Shown piece by piece: positions 17,905 through 33,798 of a DNA stretch of 64,000 nt. The notes beneath the pieces are model-generated. The model worked only from the letters and a program-made list of their open reading frames with translations. It had not been told where the DNA came from and did not search any database. Both the position numbers and the translations under genes were made by a program. Source of the stretch: Clostridiales bacterium Firm_14 (GTDB lineage: Bacteria > Bacillota > Clostridia > Saccharofermentanales > Saccharofermentanaceae); the NCBI GenBank assembly GCA_001604135.1, contig LVAT01000009.1, positions 1-64,000 of the forward strand, given 5' to 3'. Each line of letters starts with the position of its first letter. The stretch's first letter is position 1.

Positions 17905-18345
17905 TCAGGAATTCGTAAGGATAGCGAACTTGAGTGTTGCCTGAACTGCAACCTTGCCGTTGACTGTGGCAACAGCTTCGCCGAGGCCGACAGGTCCCTT
18001 TACGGCAGTGATCCTTGTCTCAAGTCTTGCTGTGTCGCCGGGAACGATGGGCTGCTTGAACTTGCACTTGTCGATGCCTGCGAAAACAGCGATCTTACCC
18101 TTGAACTCTTCCTGTGAGAGGATCGCAACGGCACCTGCCTGTGCAAGAGCTTCAACTGTGAGAACACCGGGAACGATGGGCATCTCAGGGAAATGTCCTC
18201 TGAAGAAATACTCATCAAAGGTGAAGTTCTTATAAGCGATGCAGAATTTACCCGGTTCATAATCCTCTACCTTGTCGATGAGAAGGAAAGGATGTCTGTG
18301 AGGGATGATCTTCATGATCTCTGTTGTGGTAAGTGCATTTGCCAT
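17905..18345 (-). CDS. fabZ: 3-hydroxyacyl-ACP dehydratase
   Basis: Dehydrates 3-hydroxyacyl-ACP to trans-2-enoyl-ACP in fatty acid elongation. The protein has 146 residues and a hot-dog fold. The catalytic His51 is in RGHFPEMPIVPGVL and Glu65 in TVEALAQAG, both in their standard spacing. The PHRHPFLLIDKV segment near the N-terminus is family-typical. It is the last gene of the fab operon, 18 bp after fabF, and is the only dehydratase visible in this window, so it may also serve the ACP/KS cluster upstream. Confidence 0.95.
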   Translation of the reverse strand: MANALTTTEIMKIIPHRHPFLLIDKVEDYEPGKFCIAYKNFTFDEYFFRGHFPEMPIVPGVLTVEALAQAGAVAILSQEEFKGKIAVFAGIDKCKFKQPIVPGDTARLETRITAVKGPVGLGEAVATVNGKVAVQATLKFAILTNS

Positions 18346-20421: not shown

Positions 20422-21339
20422 TTAGCCGAGAGTTTCCAATAACTTATCTACATCTTCGGGTGTTGATACACCGATTACTTTGATCGACGGAACTGTCTTT
20501 CTTACGAATCCTGCGATGGTCTTGCCGGGGCCGACTTCGATGATCGTGTCAACGCCCATCTTTTCGAGCTCATAGAGCGTCTGCTCCCACTTAACAGGGC
20601 TTGATACCTGAGCTTCGAGAAGGCCCTTGATCTGTGACTTGTCTTCAACAACAGATCCTGTAACGTTCGCAAGATAAGGGATCTTTAAGCTTCCGAGCTC
20701 AACGCCTGCAAGCTCTTTTGCAAGCTTCTCGCCTGCGCCCTTGAGAAGAGGTGAATGGAAAGGTCCGGAGACGTTGAGTTCTACGACCTTCTTGGCACCT
20801 GCCTCAGAGAGCTTGGGCATAGCTTCGAGGACTGCTTCCTTCTTGCCTGTGATAACGATCTGGCCGGGGCAGTTGAAGTTTGCGCACCAGCAGCCGTCGA
20901 TGTCCTTGATGACGCTCTCGATTGTCTCAGCGTCAAGGCCGATTACCGCTGCCATTGTGCCTTCGCCTGCGGGAACTTCGGAAGACATGAGCTTTCCTCT
21001 GATCCTTGTAAGTCTTACGGCGTCTTCAAAGCTCATAGCGCCTGCAACATAGAGGCTGCAGTATTCGCCAAGTGAGAGGCCTGCCGTAACGTCAGGCTTA
21101 ACGCCCGCAAGGAGCAGCGCATCCGTGATGATGCAGCATGCCGTAACCAATGCCGGCTGTGTGAATTCTGTGATGTTGATGTCTTCGTTGGGCTCGAAAA
21201 GGAGCTTATTCATATCAACTCCGGAAGCCTTAGTAGCTTCGGAGATCATGTCGGCATAGTGCTCGCCAGACTTGACGAATCCCTCTGCCATTCCTACCTG
21301 CTGTACGCCCTGACCCGGATAACAAAATGCGATCTTCAT
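20422..21339 (-). CDS. fabD: Malonyl-CoA:ACP transacylase
   Basis: Moves malonyl groups from CoA to ACP for both FabH and FabF. It has 305 residues. The N-terminal YPGQGVQQVGM is family-typical. The nucleophile Ser89 lies in GLSLGEYCSL; many FabD proteins have GHSLGE, so the residue before Ser is Leu here. The second catalytic His is in NVSGPFHSPLLKG. Its ATG overlaps the fabK stop as TAATG. It may load the separate ACP encoded at 27354-27605 as well, as no other transacylase is visible. Confidence 0.95.
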   Translation of the reverse strand: MKIAFCYPGQGVQQVGMAEGFVKSGEHYADMISEATKASGVDMNKLLFEPNEDINITEFTQPALVTACCIITDALLLAGVKPDVTAGLSLGEYCSLYVAGAMSFEDAVRLTRIRGKLMSSEVPAGEGTMAAVIGLDAETIESVIKDIDGCWCANFNCPGQIVITGKKEAVLEAMPKLSEAGAKKVVELNVSGPFHSPLLKGAGEKLAKELAGVELGSLKIPYLANVTGSVVEDKSQIKGLLEAQVSSPVKWEQTLYELEKMGVDTIIEVGPGKTIAGFVRKTVPSIKVIGVSTPEDVDKLLETLG

Positions 21340-23601: not shown

Positions 23602-24336
23602 TTACTTCTCGAATCTTGAAGCAGCCCAGCCGCCCTCGTTCATGTGGGAATTAGTGAGGGTTGCAAAGCCTTCCGGCGACAGGAGAGGTATCTGGAGCTT
23701 TCTGATCGTCTCGGGATCGAGCTTAAAATTATTCGCACAGTACTCGGCGCCGGCCTTTTTAAGATCTTCGAGATAGACCCTGATCTGCCTTTTGGCCTTG
23801 CCGGTCATGAAGACTTCGCCCATAGGGCACAGGATTGCCGTGTACTTTTCCCTGCCGCCGCAGATCAGATCGTACTGGGCGAGCAAAGCCGGATAGACGG
23901 GCTCGAGCTCGACATAGCCGCATGAGCTTATTACAACGAATTTCTTTTTAAATATAGAGGGATCTCTCATCTTATTGAAAGTCTGGCCGTCGTCAGACCT
24001 TGTGCCCATGTAGGGTTCGGCAAGAGATAGGCACCTGTCGGTAACTGCCTTAAGCTGTGAAGGCATGCCGTAGAAATAGAGCGGGAAGCTCTCGATGATG
24101 ACGTCTGCTTCCTTGATGGCAGAAATGATCTCTGCCATGTCATCCTTTATTGCGCAGGTTCCGTCGGGAGATGCCCAGCATGCAAAGCAGCCCAGGCAGG
24201 GCTTGATGTTTTTCTCATAAATATTGATCTTCTTAACTTCCGTGCCCTCTGGAAAACCGGATACGAACGCGTTCGTAACCTGGATGGTGTTGCTCCTGTC
24301 CTTCTTGGGACTGCCGTTAAGAACGAGAACCTTCAT
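23602..24336 (-). CDS. Iron-sulfur flavoprotein / NADPH-dependent FMN reductase family
   Basis: A 244-residue flavodoxin-fold protein. The N-terminal VLVLNGSPKKDRSNT is the phosphate-binding loop for FMN of the NADPH-dependent FMN reductase family. A compact cysteine motif follows at Cys47, Cys50, Cys53 and Cys61 (C-x2-C-x2-C-x7-C), as in iron-sulfur flavoproteins that carry a 4Fe-4S cluster. ESFPLYFYGMPSQLKAVTDR is the second flavin-side motif. Its start overlaps the stop of the ketoreductase gene (TGATG), so it is part of the ACP/KS cluster. It could reduce enoyl or keto groups or pass electrons in tailoring the product; this is inference. Confidence 0.78.
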   Translation of the reverse strand: MKVLVLNGSPKKDRSNTIQVTNAFVSGFPEGTEVKKINIYEKNIKPCLGCFACWASPDGTCAIKDDMAEIISAIKEADVIIESFPLYFYGMPSQLKAVTDRCLSLAEPYMGTRSDDGQTFNKMRDPSIFKKKFVVISSCGYVELEPVYPALLAQYDLICGGREKYTAILCPMGEVFMTGKAKRQIRVYLEDLKKAGAEYCANNFKLDPETIRKLQIPLLSPEGFATLTNSHMNEGGWAASRFEK

Positions 24337-25070
24337 CAGAGACTTAAGCCTCCGTCGAGCACGATGACCTGACCGGTCATGTAAGAGAATGCATCTGATA
24401 CGAGGCTTGCGACACAGTCAGCGACGTCTTCGGCTGAGCCGAAACGCTTCATGGGGACTGCTTCGAGATATTTCTCAGCGAGGTCGCCGGGGATCGACTT
24501 GATCATGTCAGTGCCGATGAAGCCCGGTGCTACAGCATTTACCTGGATGCCGTAGGGAGCGAGCTCTTTGGCCATCGTCTGTGTCATTGAATTGACCGCA
24601 CCCTTGGTAGCGCTGTAAACGGTCTGGCCGGGAACAGCGAGGATGGAGCTTACGGAAGATACGTTAATGATCTTGCCGCTCTTCTGTGAGCACATCTTAA
24701 GGCTTGCCGCCTGTGCGCAGTTGATGTAGCCCTGGATATTGATCGCAAGGCTCCGTGCAAGAGAGTCGGGTCTGATCATGAGAAGATATGCGTCATCGAC
24801 GACACCGGCGTTGTTTACGAGGACGTCTATCGTCTCAAAGCTCTTCTTGATCGCCTTGAACATGTCCTTAACCTGGGCGATGTCTGATGTGTCAGCCTTA
24901 TAGATCTCGCAGCGGACGCCTGCAGCAGTGATCTCTTCCTGAGCAGCCTTTGCGGCATCGTCGTTGCTCGCATAGTTGAGCGCTATGTCATAGCCGTCTT
25001 TTGCGAGCTTAAGCGCAATGGCTTTGCCGATTCCTCTGGAGCCGCCTGTAACTACCGCTGTCTTGCCCAT
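24336..25070 (-). CDS. FabG-like ketoreductase of the KS-CLF cluster
   Basis: A 244-residue short-chain dehydrogenase. The cofactor motif VTGGSRGIGKAIALKLAKDGY, NNAG in VNNAGVVDDAYLL, and the active site in VSSVSSILAVPGQTVYSATKG are intact. It is clearly a paralog of fabG (19654-20400) but diverged, as expected for a dedicated partner of the fused ketosynthase upstream (17 bp gap) and the flavoprotein downstream (1 bp overlap). Likely role is reduction of beta-keto intermediates on the cluster's own ACP. Confidence 0.85.
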   Translation of the reverse strand: MGKTAVVTGGSRGIGKAIALKLAKDGYDIALNYASNDDAAKAAQEEITAAGVRCEIYKADTSDIAQVKDMFKAIKKSFETIDVLVNNAGVVDDAYLLMIRPDSLARSLAINIQGYINCAQAASLKMCSQKSGKIINVSSVSSILAVPGQTVYSATKGAVNSMTQTMAKELAPYGIQVNAVAPGFIGTDMIKSIPGDLAEKYLEAVPMKRFGSAEDVADCVASLVSDAFSYMTGQVIVLDGGLSL

Positions 25071-25086
25071 AATAAAGCCCTCTTTC

Positions 25087-27351
25087 TTATGCTTTGGTCA
25101 GCAATACTGCCGAGTAAAGCGCGCTGGTTCCGTAAGAGACCGCGATACCGTTCTCGAACTTGCCTTCGTAGATATCCTGTGCGAGCTTCGCAAACTGCAG
25201 TGATGAGGATGCGGCTCTCGCTTCGCCGAAGTCCTTCTTGACGAGCTTGACTTCGATACCGTCTCCAAAGATCTTCTTATATGCTTCCTTCTCGAAAGAA
25301 TCGATCTCGGGAATTCCGTTGCCGAAGCCGTAGATGCACTTAACGTCAGATGCCTTCACGCCGCCCTCTTCGAGGACGTTCTCTATTGCCTTTGTAAGGG
25401 CTGCTTCGGAAAGTCTCGTGTTATCTGACCTGTCGCCTGCTGTATCTCTCGTGGAAGAGAATCCTGCGATCTTCGCATAGCGCTTAGCGCCGCGCTCTGT
25501 TGCCGAAGAATCCTTCTCGATGACGCAGGTTACCGATCCTTCGCCCAATGTCATCTTTCCTTCGCCTGCAAGGCCGAGGTCAGCATACATCTCTTCGTCG
25601 ATGTCGGTGCATTCGTCTGTTCCTGATGCGAGCATGATGCTCTCATAACCGAACATGATCGCACCTGCTGCGGCGCAGACGCTCTGGAGGCCTGACTGGA
25701 AACCGTTCGCGATCGTAACGTTATAGCCCTTGATGCCTGTTGCGATGCTTAAGTATCCGCCTGCTGCGTTATAGACGGTATTCGGGAATGCGAATGCGGA
25801 TCCCTTGTCTATGCCGTCCTTGATTATGCCCTTCTGGAAGTTGGCGATCTCTGTCATGGGACCGTCGTTGGTTCCGATGCAGATTCCGATGATGCCTTCA
25901 TTCTCGGATGTGACCGTTACACCGGCATCCTCTAATGCCTTAAGGCCGCTTAAGAGCTGGAGCTGTGACAGTCTGTCGAGCTTTCTTAAGAATGCGGACT
26001 TAACTCCGTAGGATTTGAATGTATCAGTATCGAGCTTGGCAACGAAGCTGCCTGACTCTTCATCGAATTCGCCGCTTACGATGCCCACGCCGGTTACATA
26101 GAGTTCCTGCTTGGGGCATGTGAGGTTAAGGAGATTCGGATCCTTTGCGAAAACGATGCTCGCGTTGTTGCCGCCGAATGCGAAAGAGTTCGACATCGCG
26201 TACTTGATGTCCTTTTCGAGCGGCTTGTTGGCAATGAAATTAATATTGCCGGACTTCTCGGCCAGGACCTTTAAGTCTTCTTCGCTGTAGCCTGTCGTCG
26301 GCGGAAGCTTGCCCTCTGTAAGAGCCTTTACCGTGAGGACGGCTTCGATGGCGCCTGCCGCGCCTAAGCAGTGTCCGGTCATGGACTTGGTCGAGCTTAC
26401 GGACAAGTCCTTGTTGTCTGCGAAAACAGTATTGAGCGAGAGGAATTCCGACTCGTCGTTCTTGGCTGTTCCGGTACCGTGTGCATTGACATATTCGATA
26501 TCAGTGAACTTAAGTCCGGAATTATTGACGGCACGTGTGATAACGCTCATCTGGCCTTCGCCGTCGGGCCTCGGAGCAGTGATGTGATAAGCATCGGAGC
26601 TTACGCCTGAGCCGAGAACATCGCAATAGATCTTGGCGCCGCGCTTAACTGCATGCTCGTAAGATTCGACAACGAGTACGCCTGCGCCTTCGCCCAACGT
26701 GATTCCGTCACTGTGGTTGAACGGTGAACAGTCAGAGGGAGCGAGAGCCCTTAACGCGTGGAATCCTGCATATGCGAGCGATGAAAAAGAATCGCAACCG
26801 CCTGCAAGGAAGATCTCGCCCTTGCCGCCCCTGATAAGATCGATCGCCATTGCGACACTCAAAGTGCCTGCCGCACAGGCGTTTACGATATTCGCGGTAA
26901 TGCCGCCGGCATTGTAATAATCGGCAACATTTCCTGCAATGGCAGAAGCCGGCATCGCCTTAAGATCGTCGATGTCGCCCTTCTCGCCTTTAACTTTTGC
27001 ATTGTAATATTTCTCGACGCAAGCAGCGCCTGCAATACAGGATCCCAGGATGACACCGATGTCTGATGCGTCTTCGGAATCTTTGTCGATTCCTGCATCA
27101 GCCAGGGCCTCACCGGCTGCCTTGATTCCGAGGGCAGTCGTCCTGTCGTACTTGCCGTTTGCGAGCTGTTCATTGGTGCTGTCAACTTCTGCGCCCTTGT
27201 GTGAATAGCATGCGGAAGTATCGAAGCTCTTAACGTCAGCTATGCCTGACTTGCCCGTGAGTGCTGACTCAAAGCATTCGTCAGTATTATTTCCGATTGC
27301 GCAGACGAGGCCTAAGCCCGTGATCACGCAACGCTTCTCATTCATTGGCAT
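25087..27351 (-). CDS. Fused ketosynthase - chain-length-factor-like protein
   Basis: One 754-residue polypeptide with two thiolase-fold condensing domains. Domain 1 (about 5-403) is an active-looking ketosynthase: Cys159 in NACAAGT, His291 in NAHGTGT and His327 in SMTGHCLGAAGA. Domain 2 (about 415-754) keeps the fold (YVTGVGIVSGEF; GICIGTNDGP; a C-terminal SYGTSALYSAVLL) but has Phe551 where the Cys should be (NGFQSGLQSV), GFGNG where HGTGT should be, and no GH motif. That is the pattern of a chain-length factor (KS-beta). Type II systems normally have KS and CLF as separate genes; here they are fused head to tail. It sits 2 bp after the ACP gene. The product is unknown. Confidence 0.85.
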   Translation of the reverse strand: MPMNEKRCVITGLGLVCAIGNNTDECFESALTGKSGIADVKSFDTSACYSHKGAEVDSTNEQLANGKYDRTTALGIKAAGEALADAGIDKDSEDASDIGVILGSCIAGAACVEKYYNAKVKGEKGDIDDLKAMPASAIAGNVADYYNAGGITANIVNACAAGTLSVAMAIDLIRGGKGEIFLAGGCDSFSSLAYAGFHALRALAPSDCSPFNHSDGITLGEGAGVLVVESYEHAVKRGAKIYCDVLGSGVSSDAYHITAPRPDGEGQMSVITRAVNNSGLKFTDIEYVNAHGTGTAKNDESEFLSLNTVFADNKDLSVSSTKSMTGHCLGAAGAIEAVLTVKALTEGKLPPTTGYSEEDLKVLAEKSGNINFIANKPLEKDIKYAMSNSFAFGGNNASIVFAKDPNLLNLTCPKQELYVTGVGIVSGEFDEESGSFVAKLDTDTFKSYGVKSAFLRKLDRLSQLQLLSGLKALEDAGVTVTSENEGIIGICIGTNDGPMTEIANFQKGIIKDGIDKGSAFAFPNTVYNAAGGYLSIATGIKGYNVTIANGFQSGLQSVCAAAGAIMFGYESIMLASGTDECTDIDEEMYADLGLAGEGKMTLGEGSVTCVIEKDSSATERGAKRYAKIAGFSSTRDTAGDRSDNTRLSEAALTKAIENVLEEGGVKASDVKCIYGFGNGIPEIDSFEKEAYKKIFGDGIEVKLVKKDFGEARAASSSLQFAKLAQDIYEGKFENGIAVSYGTSALYSAVLLTKA

Positions 27352-27353
27352 TA

Positions 27354-27605
27354 TCAGTCCTCTTTGTGTGCTTCTACGAATGCCGTAAGAGTCTCAATGG
27401 AACGGAAGTCCTCTCTTGTGGCACCTGCACCGGAAATGTCTACTCCGAAGAGATTCTCGATACCTACGATGATCTCGATGGAATCGATGGAATCAAGTCC
27501 GATATCCTCTCCAAAGAGCTCTGAATCGTATTCGAGCTCATCTTCCGGGATCCTGAGTCTCTCTACCAGCATTCCCTTGATCTTCTCGGCAATCTCATTA
27601 TTCAT
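27354..27605 (-). CDS. Acyl carrier protein of the KS-CLF cluster
   Basis: An 83-residue acidic helical carrier protein. The phosphopantetheine attachment site is Ser39 in GEDIGLDSIDSIEI. The usual housekeeping AcpP motif is GADSLD; GLDSID is more typical of dedicated ACPs. A GGAGG site precedes it. It lies 50 bp after the C39-like gene and 2 bp before the KS-CLF gene. It is the only ACP in the window, so a housekeeping role cannot be excluded, but the context argues for a specialised one. Confidence 0.88.
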   Translation of the reverse strand: MNNEIAEKIKGMLVERLRIPEDELEYDSELFGEDIGLDSIDSIEIIVGIENLFGVDISGAGATREDFRSIETLTAFVEAHKED

Positions 27606-27655
27606 TTCCTTAGGTTCCTCCTATATATTAAAAAGTAAAACTTACGGCTATAACC

Positions 27656-28294
27656 TTACACTATGTCGCTCTGTTTTTCCAATGAAACGGAATAAAAGCG
27701 CAAAATGACGCCAAAACTTTTAAGTTCTCTGACAGACATTTTGCACCTGCCGCCCCATGAAGACACCCAGAGATCATCACCGTCTATTTCCGTGACCGTG
27801 ACCCAGTGAAAATTGCACATGACCTTATATCCGCTCGGTTCCTCGACACAGATCTTCTTGATCGGAGACACGAAGAGCATTATCAGCGGGTCGCCGCCCT
27901 CCAGATATTTGGGGATCTTCTCCCACCATTTGAACACGAAGGATCTGAGCTTTATTTTCAGGCCTTCCTTGACGGCAAGCTTCCTGATGCCTCTGCTGAA
28001 TCTTACCGAGCTGACGCCGAAGCTTCCGTAGAAATCCCTTCCGAAGAGCTTTCTTGCTTGCCTGTTCTTTCCGATCGTAATGGGCCTTATATAATCCTTG
28101 GCGTCGAAAAAACGGCTGAAGTATTCATCCCTGGTCATGCCCTTATTCTCCTCGCCCTTAAGGCGCAGGATCGCATCAAGACCTGCGATGATCCCGCATC
28201 CGCTGTTCACGAACATCTCGTCAGGAAGCCACATCTGGCTTCCGCCGAACGACTCACGGCCCAAACTGTCAACTATCTTAGGCGGCTGACTCAT
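27656..28294 (-). CDS. C39-like cysteine hydrolase, putative
   Basis: A 212-residue protein that I cannot place firmly. It resembles the papain-like C39_2 fold: a Cys near the N-terminus followed by a helix (NSGCGIIAGLDAIL, Cys33), and late in the sequence a His followed by a beta strand and a WGG turn (FHWVTVTEIDG, His163; then VSSWGG). No signal peptide or membrane helix is seen. Its ATG overlaps the end of the asparaginase gene (ATGA), and the ACP gene follows 50 bp downstream. It could act on an amide, thioester or peptide related to the cluster product; this is inference. Confidence 0.5.
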   Translation of the reverse strand: MSQPPKIVDSLGRESFGGSQMWLPDEMFVNSGCGIIAGLDAILRLKGEENKGMTRDEYFSRFFDAKDYIRPITIGKNRQARKLFGRDFYGSFGVSSVRFSRGIRKLAVKEGLKIKLRSFVFKWWEKIPKYLEGGDPLIMLFVSPIKKICVEEPSGYKVMCNFHWVTVTEIDGDDLWVSSWGGRCKMSVRELKSFGVILRFYSVSLEKQSDIV

Positions 28295-29127
28295 CTAAGT
28301 AACACCTCCGACCAGGCTCCTTCAACAGGCATGCCCGTAAGTTCCATGGCTCCGGCTTCCCTAAGTCTCCTGCGGCTCTCATAGACTCCGCCGTTTAAGG
28401 GAATTGGCGCCATAAAGCAATCGATCCCTTTTTCTGTCCAACGCTCTACCATTGGGACAAGCCCTGCAGATGCCGTTCCCGAATGGTTGCAGCAGATAAG
28501 GACTCTGTCAAAACCTTCTTCAGGGATCACGCTCCCCGGAACAGAAGGGATCACCAATATCTTCGGGAGTTTCTCTTTGGTAAGGAACTCCGTATGGTCT
28601 TTCTTTTCAGGCACGGTGCCCTCGCTGTATTCGGAATAGATACCGTTTATGTCAGGCGACATTATCAGGTGCGCGCCGTAAAGCTGTTCTTCTCCTTCGG
28701 CATTTCTGAATACTACGCCGGTCTTCCCTTCTTCAAGGCACCTGACCGCAAAAGCCAGATTCCCGGATGCCTCACCGGGATCCGTATCCGGCGATCTCAT
28801 GGAGCCTGTAATCACAAACGGAATGTCCAAAATACCGAGAACTCTTGATGCGAGCTGCGCGAAATAAGCACATGTATCGGTTCCGTGAGTAATCAGGATC
28901 CCGTCAAAGCCTGGAGCTTCATCAACTGTCTTCTTCAATGCGCTGCGGTAAAGATAAGGCGTCGCATCCTCTGAAGAATAGGTCTCAAATTCAGGAAAGA
29001 CGAATTCGTGGGACGGATGGTTTTCGAGAAGATAAGAGCGCGCGAAAGAAGGCTCACCGAGCTTAACCGTGCCCGACGAATTATAAGAAGAGATCGTTCC
29101 TCCGAGCATCACGCCTAATATCCTCAT
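28291..29127 (-). CDS. ansA: L-asparaginase family protein (type I-like)
   Basis: Hydrolyses L-asparagine, or a related amide, to the acid and ammonia. It has 278 residues. The two Thr motifs of the family are present: the first in MLGGTISS (Thr11) and the second in LITHGTDT (Thr83-Asp84); the GSMRSPDTDPGEASGNL segment is also typical. The open frame extends upstream, but AAGGA lies 7 nt before the ATG at 29127 and that start gives the normal N-terminus. It is the first gene of the run into the C39-like, ACP and KS-CLF genes, and is divergent from exoA. Confidence 0.82.
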   Translation of the reverse strand: MRILGVMLGGTISSYNSSGTVKLGEPSFARSYLLENHPSHEFVFPEFETYSSEDATPYLYRSALKKTVDEAPGFDGILITHGTDTCAYFAQLASRVLGILDIPFVITGSMRSPDTDPGEASGNLAFAVRCLEEGKTGVVFRNAEGEEQLYGAHLIMSPDINGIYSEYSEGTVPEKKDHTEFLTKEKLPKILVIPSVPGSVIPEEGFDRVLICCNHSGTASAGLVPMVERWTEKGIDCFMAPIPLNGGVYESRRRLREAGAMELTGMPVEGAWSEVLLR

Positions 29128-29194: not shown

Positions 29195-29956
29195 ATGAGA
29201 ATAGCGAGCTGGAATGTCAACGGAATAAGAGCAGTAGCAACAAAGGGTTTTGCTGAGAGCCTGGAGAAGATCGGCGCCGACATCATAGGCATCCAGGAGA
29301 TCAAGGCGATGAGAGACCAGTTAGGCCCTGAGATCACTGATATTCCGGGTTACAAGAGCTGGTTCTATTCAGCCGAGCGCAAGGGCTATTCCGGCACGGC
29401 ACTCTATTCGAAGATCGAGCCTGTAAGCGTCGAATTCGGTTTCGGCGTCGAAGAGTTCGACCATGAAGGCCGCGTTATCAAGGCTGATTTCGGTGACTTT
29501 GTACTCTTCAACATCTACTTCCCAAATGGCGGAAGAGGCGACGACTTCGTTAAGTTCAAGCTCAGATTCTACGACTGCTTCCTGGATCAGGTGGATGCCC
29601 TTAAGGCACAGGGCAAGGAAGTCATCTGCTGCGGCGACGTAAATACCGCCCACAAGGAGATCGACCTGTCCAACCCTAAGGCAAATTCCAAGATATCAGG
29701 CTTCCTTCCCGAAGAGCGCGCATATATGGACAAGTTCATCGAGAGGGGCCTTACAGACACATTCAGAATGCTCCATCCCGACGATAAGGAATGCTATACC
29801 TGGTGGTCTTACAAGACCGCCGCAAGAGAGCGTAATGTCGGCTGGAGGATCGACTATTTCTTCACGACTGACGGACTGATTTCACGCGTAAAAGAGTCCA
29901 ACATGATGACTGACATCATGGGCTCCGATCACTGCCCCATCTATTTGGATATCTGA
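29195..29956 (+). CDS. exoA: Exodeoxyribonuclease III
   Basis: AP endonuclease and 3'-5' exonuclease acting in base excision repair. It has 253 residues. Motifs in order: MRIASWNVNGIRA, Glu35 in IIGIQEIKA (metal ligand), YSGTALYSK, the GDVNTAHKEIDL segment, and the terminal GSDHCPI with the catalytic Asp-His. Close in size to E. coli Xth (268 residues) and B. subtilis ExoA (252). Its last 16 bp overlap the end of the convergent gene at 29941. Confidence 0.96.
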   Translation: MRIASWNVNGIRAVATKGFAESLEKIGADIIGIQEIKAMRDQLGPEITDIPGYKSWFYSAERKGYSGTALYSKIEPVSVEFGFGVEEFDHEGRVIKADFGDFVLFNIYFPNGGRGDDFVKFKLRFYDCFLDQVDALKAQGKEVICCGDVNTAHKEIDLSNPKANSKISGFLPEERAYMDKFIERGLTDTFRMLHPDDKECYTWWSYKTAARERNVGWRIDYFFTTDGLISRVKESNMMTDIMGSDHCPIYLDI

Positions 29957-32900
29957 TCTTCGCCTCTGGTATTTTCTTCGAAAAGACTGCCGTTGACGTC
30001 AAGCTTTGTAATGGATCCTGTTACCCGGAAATCCATGTTGACTGAATGCCTGGGTATATCAAGGCTGGTAAAGATAGTACCTTCGGTCTTGCAGTTGGAT
30101 ACCCTGACCCTGACCCTGTCATCCATGCCTCTGTAGATTCCGGCCTGCTTGCCGCCGATATCGACTCTTATGGTGACATAATCTATCATGATATTTGAAG
30201 GTGCAGCCGTGCCGGATCCGATGACGGTGATGTCATGTGCCTTGGCCTGTGCGATAACCGTCGCGCTGTATATGATTATATGCAGTTTCTCGCTGTGCTT
30301 CGAACCGATCATGACGACTTCAGCGCCCTCGAAATCCATATTTACGGAGGAGTGCTCGATCATCATGTCGCATCTGCCCATGAACGAACCGATTCCGACA
30401 GCATTCTGCGCCACGCTCTTGATCCCGATAAAGCAATTGCCGATAAGCGGTTCGATATCGCCGGTATTAGAACCGATTCCGACAGCATTCTGGCCCATGA
30501 GATTGAGCTTATACATGCCCCTCCGGATATTAAGATGCCCGCCTAAGCCGCTTCCTATTGCGACACTCTTGTTGGCATTGACAGTTATCTCGATAAGGCC
30601 ATCCTGATCGAAAACAAGGTCTCCGTGATAAGAGTTCATATCGTTTCCGATACCGAATGTTTCCGTCGCCGTCGTACTGATGGAGAGGTTTCCGACTCCT
30701 TCGAAAGTCAGGGTCGACGAAGGTGCGACCCTTATTCCGCCGCCTGTAAGCGTATTCTCACCCGTAAGGGCTAATACTACTTCGCAGTCTTCGCCTATAC
30801 TTATCGCAGGCATAGTTTCCCTGCCGGTAAATGAGCCGTTCTCAAGCGTTATCTTTCCCTTGTAGCCGTTCTCGATCTCAATGTTGATCGAACCTTCATC
30901 GCCGGGAACACCAATGATATGCAGGTCTCTGTATGTAACATAGCCTGATGTTATGTGAATGGTCTTGTAGCCCTCATTGCTGAGGATAGGCAGAGAGATC
31001 ATTTCTTCTCTTCCGGCAATATAGTCTTTCTTCGTGTGGTTATTGCCTCTGCTCATGCAGTATCTGACGATCTCTTCCTTGACTGCTTCAGGGATCTCCT
31101 TGATCATCTTAGCCGAAGGCCTTGCAGTGTAGAAACCCTGAATGAGATCGATCCCGAGTTTGATAACAGTCTCGACTTCTTCTGCTGTTTCTACGCCTTC
31201 AGCAAGCGCCAGGATATTATTGTCATGCGAGAATTCAATGATATTCCTTACAAAGTGCTGCTTCTGCGGTGAATCCTGAATATTTGCAAGCAGCGCCCTG
31301 TCGATCTTTACGTAGTTAGGCATATAACGCAGGAGATTGCTTACATTTGAATATCCGGAGCCATAGTCATCTACAGCTGTCTCAAAGCCTGCTTTAATAC
31401 AATCATTTTTCAGGAGGGTCAATTCCTTCTCGTCGATCTCGGCCTGCTCCGTTAATTCGACTACAAGTCTGCCGGAAAAGGCCTTGGCCTTTTCGGCGAT
31501 CTCTTTCATGTCCTTGCTCTTCATACGCTGTCCGGGAATGGAGTTAATGAAGATCTTAGCGTCGCTCTTGATAGAAGCGGCGTGCTTATTCAGATAATCC
31601 AAAACATTATTGAATGTTGCGTATTCGATATCGTAAAGCCTGTTAAAGAGTCCTGCATACTTTAAGACAACGAGCGGCTGGATGATCGGGCGGGTGTCAA
31701 CTCTCATAAGCGCTTCATAGGCATAGATCTCACCGTTCCTGACATCGATGATCGGCTGGAAGTAATAGTTGATCTTGTTCTTGTCCAGGATCTCATTTAC
31801 TATATTGGCCTCTTCGATCTGGGCATCTGTCAGTCCGTCTGCATTGAGTTTCTGGATATTCATCTTCTGTCCGTTCTTTCGGGACAGTGCAACGGAAATA
31901 AGGCTCTCGTAATCGTTTCTGGTTCTTGGAGTTCCTTCTGCGGTTCCAAAGTAAACTTCGATCTTTCTTCTGCCTGCAGGAAGGGTTTTGTTGAAGGCGG
32001 CGATCTTTTTGTTAAGCTGCTGCTCTCTTTCTTCCATGACTCTAAGAGGTTCGCTGTCACCGCTGACGACTTCGAGCGCAACCATCTCGCCGTTGCCCAT
32101 GCTGTAGATCTGACCTTTCGAGAAAACCTCGATAAGCAAACGAGCGACGCTTATGATCGTGTTGTCACCAACGGTCCTGCCGTCGTCATTGTTGATCCTG
32201 GAGAGATTCTTGATGTCGATCGCAAGTGCTCCGACCTTCTCATCCTCTTTCAATGGATTAAGGGCGATTATGCCTTCTATCTGTCTTAAGAATCCGTTGT
32301 AATTATATATGCCGGTAAGCGGGTCCCTTACGAGGCTTGCCTCAAGCTTCCTGTTGATCGCATTGAGCTCGTCGTATCTTCTGAAGTTTTCGAGTCCCCT
32401 CATTATGCTGTGGAGCCAGAAACGGTACGATTTCTTGTAAGATCTGGGATCCGTATAGGACAATACCGCATAACCGAAGACGGATTCTTCAAAATGCATT
32501 GGCGTGAAGAAGAAAGCTTCAGGCTTTTCTCTGTCCATGTCGAGTCTCGGGATAAGAATATGCCTGTCGAAGTAAACATCGTTGCTTACTCTGTCGCAGT
32601 TAAGGCTTTCCGGACTGCATGCGATCACATGCATCATCTTCCTTGAAAAGAATCTGTCTGTATCTGACAGGCTCGCCACAGAGAGCCTTGAATCATCGAT
32701 GGCTCCTGCCATGAGTTTTGCCCTCGACTGCCATTTGTCATTAAGGCAGATCGAGAAACTCTCAAAATCCCTGATCTGGAAGACATACGAGAATGCGGTT
32801 TTCATGAGGCCGTTAAAATCATTCTGTATTATCAGATCCTCGTCTAAATGGTTAAACGAAGAGAAAACGCTGTTATGTGAAGTGTCCGTATCCCAAACCT

Positions 32901-33798
32901 TGCGAAGCTTGACTTCATACCGCACCTTATCCTCGCTGCAGCCGCAGGTCCTTCCGCAGAAGAATTCACCGTTATCCTTGAACGGTTCGGTCTTTTGGCC
33001 TTCCATGGAATTGAAAAGATAATCGAGCGCATATGAACCCAGGGCCATGGCCGGTATCTTGATGGAAGTGAGCGGTTTGGGAGAATATCTGCCCTCTTCA
33101 GTGGAATCGTAACCTGCGATCGCAATATCTTCAGGAACCCTGATCCCGCCCGCTTCCAAAGCTTTTGCAAGACCTATAGCCATGCAGTCATTGGCGCATG
33201 CGATGGCCTGCGGAAGCTTTCCGCCCTTCTTGACAAGACGGTCACCTAAGCTCTCACCGCTCGTATACCAGAAATCACCATAGAAGACCCTGTCCCTGCC
33301 TACTGACAGGCTGTGTTCGGACATGGCATCGATAAACGCCTGAAGTCTTTGCTTTGAGTAATGATGCCATGCCTTGCCCGTAAGGAAAGCGATATCCGTG
33401 TAACCGTGATCGTCGATCAGGTGGTTAACAAGCATCTTGACAGCATCGTAATGATTCGGGAAGACCGACGGAAAATACTTGCTCTCCTTATCGATGAAGA
33501 TGACCGGGCATTTGCAGCGGTCATGGATCATCTGCTCGATGCTGTCAGACAGGCCGGATGACTGAAGAGTATCGGCCATGACAGCGACAGCATCAAAATC
33601 TTCAAAAGGAACAAGAGAAAAAATCGATGTCTCGCCGACTTCTCTTCCGAAATTATTCTGATATTTGAGGTAGCTTCCGAAGACAAGAACGTCAGCATCA
33701 TGCTTAAATGCATTGTCAATAAAGCCCTGAATAAATTGGGACTGATAATATTCATCAGCCTGGGCAACGATTAAAGCTATTCTTTTACGGTCCGCCAT
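29941..33798 (-). CDS. LacI-type sensor / GGDEF / EAL / beta-helix protein
   Basis: A 1285-residue soluble protein with no signal peptide or membrane helix. Residues about 1-285 form a LacI/PurR-type periplasmic-binding fold without a DNA-binding head (KRIALIVAQADEYYQSQF; PQAIACANDCMAIGLAKAL), ending in a CGRTCGC cluster. A linker of about 200 residues follows. A GGDEF domain (about 490-645) is degenerate, with GNGEM near 568. The EAL domain (about 670-915) looks active: YEALMR, FINSIPGQ, ELTEQAE, DDYGSGYSN, VKIDRAL, AEGVET and IQGFY. From about 935 to the end runs a repetitive beta-helix-like region with recurring (V/I)GIGS turns. It is probably a ligand-sensing c-di-GMP phosphodiesterase. 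The C-terminal repeat on a cytoplasmic signalling protein is unusual. Confidence 0.82.
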   Translation of the reverse strand: MADRKRIALIVAQADEYYQSQFIQGFIDNAFKHDADVLVFGSYLKYQNNFGREVGETSIFSLVPFEDFDAVAVMADTLQSSGLSDSIEQMIHDRCKCPVIFIDKESKYFPSVFPNHYDAVKMLVNHLIDDHGYTDIAFLTGKAWHHYSKQRLQAFIDAMSEHSLSVGRDRVFYGDFWYTSGESLGDRLVKKGGKLPQAIACANDCMAIGLAKALEAGGIRVPEDIAIAGYDSTEEGRYSPKPLTSIKIPAMALGSYALDYLFNSMEGQKTEPFKDNGEFFCGRTCGCSEDKVRYEVKLRKVWDTDTSHNSVFSSFNHLDEDLIIQNDFNGLMKTAFSYVFQIRDFESFSICLNDKWQSRAKLMAGAIDDSRLSVASLSDTDRFFSRKMMHVIACSPESLNCDRVSNDVYFDRHILIPRLDMDREKPEAFFFTPMHFEESVFGYAVLSYTDPRSYKKSYRFWLHSIMRGLENFRRYDELNAINRKLEASLVRDPLTGIYNYNGFLRQIEGIIALNPLKEDEKVGALAIDIKNLSRINNDDGRTVGDNTIISVARLLIEVFSKGQIYSMGNGEMVALEVVSGDSEPLRVMEEREQQLNKKIAAFNKTLPAGRRKIEVYFGTAEGTPRTRNDYESLISVALSRKNGQKMNIQKLNADGLTDAQIEEANIVNEILDKNKINYYFQPIIDVRNGEIYAYEALMRVDTRPIIQPLVVLKYAGLFNRLYDIEYATFNNVLDYLNKHAASIKSDAKIFINSIPGQRMKSKDMKEIAEKAKAFSGRLVVELTEQAEIDEKELTLLKNDCIKAGFETAVDDYGSGYSNVSNLLRYMPNYVKIDRALLANIQDSPQKQHFVRNIIEFSHDNNILALAEGVETAEEVETVIKLGIDLIQGFYTARPSAKMIKEIPEAVKEEIVRYCMSRGNNHTKKDYIAGREEMISLPILSNEGYKTIHITSGYVTYRDLHIIGVPGDEGSINIEIENGYKGKITLENGSFTGRETMPAISIGEDCEVVLALTGENTLTGGGIRVAPSSTLTFEGVGNLSISTTATETFGIGNDMNSYHGDLVFDQDGLIEITVNANKSVAIGSGLGGHLNIRRGMYKLNLMGQNAVGIGSNTGDIEPLIGNCFIGIKSVAQNAVGIGSFMGRCDMMIEHSSVNMDFEGAEVVMIGSKHSEKLHIIIYSATVIAQAKAHDITVIGSGTAAPSNIMIDYVTIRVDIGGKQAGIYRGMDDRVRVRVSNCKTEGTIFTSLDIPRHSVNMDFRVTGSITKLDVNGSLFEENTRGEDQISK

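Follow-up and report, generated by a model that had tools for sequence, protein, structure and literature searches.

A four-gene cassette with a fused ketosynthase-chain length factor protein, probably making an unusual fatty chain, in rumen and gut Clostridia

Gene content of the locus

The window analysed here, a stretch of 64,000 nucleotides from contig LVAT01000009.1 of Clostridiales bacterium Firm_14 (assembly GCA_001604135.1), carries on its minus strand a compact four-gene cassette, whose probable product is an unusual fatty chain, likely unsaturated and destined for the cell membrane. Its central gene (25087-27351) encodes a 754-aa protein with two Pfam ketoacyl-synthase stretches, in which a ketosynthase (KS) half is fused to a half resembling a chain length factor (CLF). 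This KS-CLF gene is preceded, with a 2-bp gap, by the gene of a dedicated acyl carrier protein (ACP; 27354-27605; 83 aa, PF00550 PP-binding), whose Ser39, in the motif LDSID, is invariant in 25 aligned rows. It is followed, after a 16-bp gap, by the gene of a FabG-like ketoreductase (KR; 24336-25070; 244 aa, Pfam SDR) and, with a 1-bp overlap, by that of a flavoprotein of 244 aa (23602-24336; Pfam Flavodoxin_2/FMN_red), a candidate ene or polyene reductase with a CxxCxxC...C motif.

Directly downstream of the cassette and in the same direction lies a complete fab operon that includes FabK, with FabD at 20422-21339 and FabZ at 17905-18345. Upstream, an asparaginase gene (28291-29127; Pfam asparaginase) overlaps by 4 bp the gene of a so-called C39 protein (27656-28294), which is itself separated from the ACP gene by 50 bp. 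An earlier note on this DNA had described these two genes and the cassette as a single system of six genes lying head to tail; all six open reading frames (ORFs) are indeed found on the minus strand, but the proposed extent is too wide, asparaginase and C39 lying outside a unit of four genes. The label 'C39-like hydrolase', which comes from the same note, finds no backing in Pfam, where nothing matches the protein even at E 10, despite the invariance of C33 and H163 in 26 aligned rows. At 29941-33798, a gene for a 1285-aa protein that combines a LacI-type ligand-binding domain with GGDEF and EAL domains is kept beside the locus in the genus.

The fused KS-CLF protein

The KS half (residues 1-405; 26137-27351; FabF-type by NCBIfam) has the catalytic residues C159 (26875-26877), H291 and H327 reported in the earlier note, and these are invariant in the 24 aligned fused proteins of the genus, the window protein included. 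In the CLF-like half (residues 411-754; 25090-26121), the active cysteine is replaced by F551 (25699-25701); the same 24 proteins have F, Y, S or N at this position, never C, and 12 fused proteins from other genera have V, I or A at the equivalent one. The counterparts of the two histidine motifs are YGFGNG and GEARAAS, the latter in place of the GH motif, so that the announced loss of both motifs is borne out. This half is nevertheless conserved, since 113 of its positions are invariant in the 24 genus rows across two subgroups that are 53% identical there. The KS-CLF gene is split in two reading frames in L060 and L068 (genome G050) and in L109, owing to assembly error or decay.

The KS half scores 456 bits against the FabF equivalog model TIGR03150, below its cut-off of 493.75, and passes the looser subfamily model NF005589 (444 bits for a cut-off of 387); its best sequence match in the PDB is 9s5h, named '3-oxoacyl-(acyl-carrier-protein) synthase'. 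With a TIGR03150 score under the cut-off and two domains in one chain, the protein thus differs from FabF, the single-domain housekeeping KS. The CLF half alone matches KS families weakly, at about 110 bits to FabF models and 44 and 38 bits in Pfam. When its profile is compared with solved structures, FabF is nearest (126 bits) and known CLFs are far (52 bits for 1tqy_B, 48 bits for 6smo_C).

The AlphaFold2 model of KS-CLF (pLDDT 84.8, pTM 0.90) has as its top Foldseek match 6riw, the KS-CLF didomain of PfaC (TMq 0.78, rmsd 7.6, 18% identity); the other 49 rows listed are single-domain KS chains with a TMq of 0.48-0.50, and the VIA-align rows span the KS half only. As the best match is a didomain, both halves are predicted to take up roughly the arrangement of a known KS-CLF pair, in agreement with the heterodimer-like fold that the earlier note proposed to look for.

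A 43-row tree, which also took in four separate KS/CLF pairs, four further separate Streptomyces KS-type proteins and five FabF, groups the KS halves of the 13 fused proteins in a single clade (100/100) and their 13 CLF halves in a second one (100/99), both standing apart from all these other proteins. The fused CLF halves and the four separate CLFs sampled, two of which (L154, L155) adjoin aromatase/cyclase genes, fall in different clades (100/99 each); the CLF half of the fused proteins seems to have originated independently of that of the separate pairs. This tree left out L137, L140, L108 and both halves of L138, whose CLF branch is 3.28 long. In an earlier tree of 37 rows, with long branches kept and without the separate KS/CLF pairs, the additional FabF and L152, the fused KS halves still form a clade (92/94) but the CLF halves do not resolve as one. 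A single origin of the fused halves therefore depends on the omission of L138, and the halves of PfaC, PigJ and CylI were outside both trees.

Conservation and extent of the cassette

A contig scan with a CLF profile detected at least 61 KS-CLF loci in rumen and gut Clostridia, a lower bound because the scan relied on two short peptide patterns. They were divided into 35 loci of the window's genus and 26 of other genera, and neighbours, named through Pfam matches of representatives, were counted only where there was enough flank or where the gene was present. On this basis, KS-CLF is accompanied by ACP in 35/35 and 25/25 loci of the two groups, by KR in 34/34 and 25/26, and by the flavoprotein in 34/34 and 22/23. 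Both misses are explained: the KR frame of L125 overlaps KS-CLF and was skipped by the position rule, and the flavoprotein of L123 sits upstream. The conserved neighbourhood that the earlier note had proposed as a check is therefore present wherever the flank allows it to be seen.

The loci of other genera are richer. A FabZ-like dehydratase belongs to the unit in 25/25 of them, as opposed to 1 of 33 genus-group loci with one nearby, and a PlsC-like acyltransferase lies upstream in 21/23; a phosphopantetheinyl transferase (PPTase) is found in 12/21, a patatin-like protein in 10/23 and FabH in 0/20. The most divergent of them, L123, also has a malonyltransferase, a carboxyltransferase and a PPTase. 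L095, with PlsC and without asparaginase (AsnA) or C39, was assigned by hand to the window's genus and is probably a member of the other group. In [Eubacterium] eligens ATCC 27750, a fusion of 797 aa, 46.6% identical to the window KS-CLF, is encoded in an operon with ACP, KR, FabZ, malonyl-CoA:ACP transacylase (MCAT), carboxyltransferase beta, a flavodoxin family protein and PlsX; its flavoprotein and KR are respectively 43% and 62% identical to those of the window. Besides this strain, carriers in records not labelled as metagenome-assembled genomes (MAGs) are Ruminococcaceae AB4001, YAD3003 and P7, and Lachnoclostridium MSJ-17. CLF profile scans at E 1e-40 retrieved 6 of 391 genomes of the class and 4 of 398 of the phylum, the window's own genome being counted in both; since a score of about 143 bits is already attained by single FabF-like frames (416-423 aa), a frame had to be near 800 aa long to be accepted as fused.

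Within the genus, whose genomes are titled Saccharofermentans sp., Ruminococcaceae, Clostridiales or Clostridia and are mostly rumen and gut MAGs, the cassette is carried by 33 of 70 genomes (own genome included, and G050 in two frames), and it was found in none of 48 other genomes of the order. One of these order-level relatives has three KS-like matches in frames of 633-1603 aa (G112:C154), perhaps a type I polyketide synthase (PKS). The recurrent genus order is AsnA - C39 - ACP - KS-CLF - KR - flavoprotein - FabH - FabK - FabD - FabG - FabF - FabZ. Between flavoprotein and FabH, genes for large repeat or leucine-rich surface-like proteins are inserted in L042 (5333-8034) and L043 (9859-14403), and genes for an AraC-like regulator and a lipoprotein-like protein in L048, L050, L051 and L062 (names given by eye).

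A tree of FabK, FabD and FabG covering 46 of the 70 genomes (47 were taken, and G028 was removed for missing genes) requires only two changes of the cassette label and shows one clade of 22 carriers, with a single non-carrier, G009, inside. This genome lacks exactly the four cassette genes on an unbroken contig, where FabH, C39 and AsnA are consecutive and FabH and C39 lie about 0.5 kb apart. G011 (L053), where the cassette is absent, likewise has AsnA - C39 - FabH. As both genomes keep AsnA and C39 beside FabH, the removable unit consists of ACP, KS-CLF, KR and flavoprotein. Asparaginase and C39, which are upstream of the cassette in 34/35 genus-group loci, were accordingly rejected as core genes: they are retained where the cassette is missing, and in other genera they are found in 0/17 and 0/22 loci, respectively.

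Profile searches of the window's genome, which is 99.25% complete, found a single FabA/FabZ-type dehydratase and a single malonyltransferase-type acyltransferase, the FabZ and FabD of the fab operon, together with one PPTase match (a 140-aa frame) and five PP-binding matches. Since there is only one of each, FabD and FabZ are likely shared with the cassette, as the earlier note had suggested on seeing no dehydratase or acyltransferase gene in it.

Proposed function

With moderate confidence, we read the cassette as a compact type II synthase of the polyene (highly reducing) type that feeds a membrane lipid and uses the flavoprotein as a reductase; the product, its lipid destination and the role of the flavoprotein are what we infer here. 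FabD would load malonate onto the dedicated ACP, the KS half would condense iteratively, KR would reduce, and dehydration would be carried out by FabZ or, in relatives, by the dedicated FabZ-like enzyme. The CLF half would set the limit on the number of rounds. In the absence of a dedicated FabK-type enoyl reductase, the chain would remain largely unsaturated, and the flavoprotein, a member of the azoreductase/flavone-reductase superfamily, would reduce the conjugated chain or one double bond of it. Glycerolipid acyltransferases would then put the chain into membrane lipid: PlsC beside the unit in relatives, PlsX in [Eubacterium] eligens and, in the window's species, an enzyme encoded elsewhere in the genome. 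This last step is proposed because of the PlsC neighbours in relatives and of PlsX in [Eubacterium] eligens, which also lend support to the earlier idea of a specialised acyl chain made in an anaerobe.

The flavoprotein is modelled as a flavodoxin-fold FMN reductase, and its nearest solved sequence is the flavone reductase (FLR) 7d38, with which it has the cysteine motif in common. FLR is described as an ene-reductase of gut bacteria (PMC7862272), and it is plausible that the cassette enzyme reduces a conjugated chain. Among 11 genomes of the genus, a flavoprotein of the cassette type scores 388-408 bits in 3/3 carriers, and the best score in the 8 non-carriers is 86 bits. The name 'iron-sulfur flavoprotein' used in the earlier note, which was founded on the motif, is not retained: the motif is also present in 7d38, and a text search of the main text of PMC7862272 did not find the term 'iron-sulfur'.

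Several observations weigh against this polyene-type, membrane-lipid reading. The match to 7d38 is distant (36.9 bits alone, 44.9 as a profile) and limited to the N-terminal 107-140 residues, and Foldseek ranks azoreductases first and in most of the best 50 rows, with 7d38 not among them. FabK of the adjacent fab operon could fully reduce the chain, and an ordinary saturated product is possible given that the KS half is closest to FabF. The PlsC-like gene is not upstream of ACP in 34/35 loci of the window's genus, L095 being the exception. The co-occurrence of an unlinked AMP-ligase-ACP plus double-PlsC locus with the cassette, found in 29 of 33 carriers and in 1 of 37 non-carriers among the 70 genus genomes, would amount to about one event: as the cassette label needs only two tree changes and marks essentially one clade, this link is not independent evidence.

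The locus in question (L164:2604-10115; G000:C13) encodes a GT2 protein, an alpha/beta hydrolase, an AMP-ligase-ACP fusion (650 aa), a double-PlsC protein (464 aa), DegV, a second hydrolase and then FakA; it was rejected as a proven partner and is kept as a lead. An ortholog of the cluster PlsC was also sought in the window's genome, and none of its seven PF01553 matches is a clear one (best identity 28-29%). Finally, the yellow affinity substance (celluxanthene/flavoaffinin) was discarded as a product, since PMC12144888 ascribes its synthesis to a type I PKS and PMC11839114 likewise attributes it to one.

One wider possibility, which we put forward tentatively, is that a membrane-lipid pathway not yet described is common to rumen and gut Clostridia, [Eubacterium] eligens included. 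Its KS-CLF, with a single and ancient origin, would build an unsaturated chain on its own ACP, the flavodoxin-fold flavoprotein would be a new enoyl or polyene reductase acting on the carrier-bound chain and PlsC or PlsX would direct the chain to glycerolipids, one clade of the window's genus having trimmed the system to four genes and wired it to the fab operon.

Alternative explanations

The alternative that survives best, possible but in our view doubtful, is a specialised branch of fatty acid synthesis, in which a saturated or 3-hydroxy chain of set length would be made via the adjacent FabK and the flavoprotein would have an unrelated redox role. The FabF-like KS half, the position of the cassette just upstream of, and codirectional with, a complete fab operon including FabK, and the PlsC or PlsX of relatives would all fit such a branch. 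It accounts less well for the loci of other genera, where the unit is not beside FabH (0/20) and where no FabK homolog was matched in 26 loci, FabI-type reductases not having been searched separately. The nearly constant presence of the flavoprotein also argues against it, as does the fact that the nearest fused KS-CLF families sit in polyene-type clusters.

A diffusible polyene or pigment of the granadaene kind, with the PlsC/PlsX-like proteins joining the chain to another head group, is improbable. Granadaene-like clusters do have a fused KS-CLF, and the same flavoprotein type occurs in the clusters of genomes G314 and G353, though not in the G685 stretch or in the annotation of the Priestia one. 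However, the window unit contains no gene of the GcvT/CylF-like, glycosyltransferase or ABC transporter kind, and no such family is among those common to at least 9 of 28 clustered loci.

A KS-CYF system that forms a ring, as AmcF-AmcG does in cispentacin biosynthesis, is very unlikely: the NCBIfam models AmcF, AmcB and AmcE match weakly to moderately, but with scores under their curated cut-offs (267 for 325, 46.8 for 80 and, against the FabZ of the fab operon, 67 for 140), and none of the matches beside the window unit is to an aminotransferase. We likewise give hardly any credence to a tandem FabF pair, degenerate or redundant, that would act in ordinary fatty acid synthesis, the outcome that the earlier note had itself named as opposing, since, even if both halves score best against FabF, no aligned fused protein, whether among the 24 of the genus, the 12 of other genera or those aligned for the Priestia and G314 identities and for the 43-row tree, has an active-site cysteine in the second half, which moreover keeps its invariant positions and forms a clade separate from that of the KS halves.

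Comparison with known systems

A KS-CLF fusion is not new in kind, as PfaC and granadaene-like clusters precede it, and the earlier view that a free two-domain KS-CLF was unknown has to be revised. Fused KS-CLFs are found in public plasmid records of [Eubacterium] eligens, Priestia megaterium, Pseudalkalibacillus and Streptomyces, and further in genomes G314, G353 and G685. In the Pseudalkalibacillus plasmid (L138:10001-22020), the fusion is accompanied by KASIII, a HAD-IIIC phosphatase, ACP and an E2-type acyltransferase, a set presumably reminiscent of tetronate pathways; in the Streptomyces plasmid clusters (L137:4037-15464, L139, L140), it lies beside two separate KS genes, two dehydratases and a KASIII-like gene. 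For the gut-Clostridia family with flavoprotein and PlsC, no published description was found in the open-licence literature searched, where the four papers retrieved for a fused KS-CLF, by title and start of abstract, are all on polyunsaturated fatty acids (PUFA). Neither 'fused' nor 'fusion' appears in the portions covered of PMC10698177 and of the type II PKS catalogue PMC10132072. Only a handful of polyketide-like products of obligate anaerobes are known, according to PMC11839114. As the unit is compact, conserved and present in non-MAG records, cultures can be examined for its product. Having KS and CLF in one chain would make chain-length control easier to study, and the flavoprotein, if it acts on a carrier-bound chain, would represent a novel type of enoyl or polyene reductase.

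Granadaene is a polyene made by a KS/KR/dehydratase (DH) cycle, with CylF (GcvT-like), CylE and ABC transporter genes given beside the synthase genes in its core (PMC6985545). The gene sets of Priestia, G314 and G685, with MCAT, KR, ACP, FabZ and a GcvT-like protein beside KS-CLF and, in G314, also two glycosyltransferases, a PPTase and genes that by eye look like those of an ABC transporter, resemble the set described there. By analogy with these clusters, rather than from its own sequence, CylI may be a KS-CLF fusion. Like the cassette and its relatives, the granadaene-like clusters have a free fused KS-CLF with KR, ACP and a FabZ-like dehydratase, and their KS and CLF halves each fall in one clade with those of the cassette. 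Identities to the Priestia and G314 proteins are nevertheless only 33-39% for KS and 26-27% for CLF, and the window unit has no GcvT/CylF, glycosyltransferase or ABC genes, its relatives having PlsC or PlsX instead; CylE was not seen among the window neighbours in general scans, no search with the CylE sequence having been made.

The pks and fun clusters of Lactobacillus reuteri, compared by description only, have KS proteins with ACP, KR and PPTase: the 688-aa PksB with a dehydratase, and the 798-aa FunB in a cluster suggested to borrow one, a conjugated product being predicted (PMC6498181). They differ from the cassette by a dedicated four-subunit carboxylase and by having no PlsC among the genes listed in that paper.

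PfaC is part of a multidomain megasynthase, the PUFA synthase. It shares with the cassette protein the fused KS-CLF didomain fold, of which it is the best structural match, whereas the cassette protein has 754 aa and KS-type stretches only, is 18% identical to it and has its single 83-aa ACP encoded by a separate gene.

FLR, the best solved sequence match of the cassette flavoprotein, has the same cysteine motif but a longer chain (310 aa) with an extra C-terminal tail. Lastly, the highly reducing type II PKSs of ishigamide and aryl polyenes, described as following a KS/CLF, ACP, KR and DH logic (PMC10698177), use a KS/CLF heterodimer of separate proteins in place of one 754-aa ORF, and the window unit is without the dedicated dehydratase that 25/25 loci of other genera have; like the cassette, they pair an active Cys-His-His KS with a cysteine-less CLF and have a dedicated ACP and KR.

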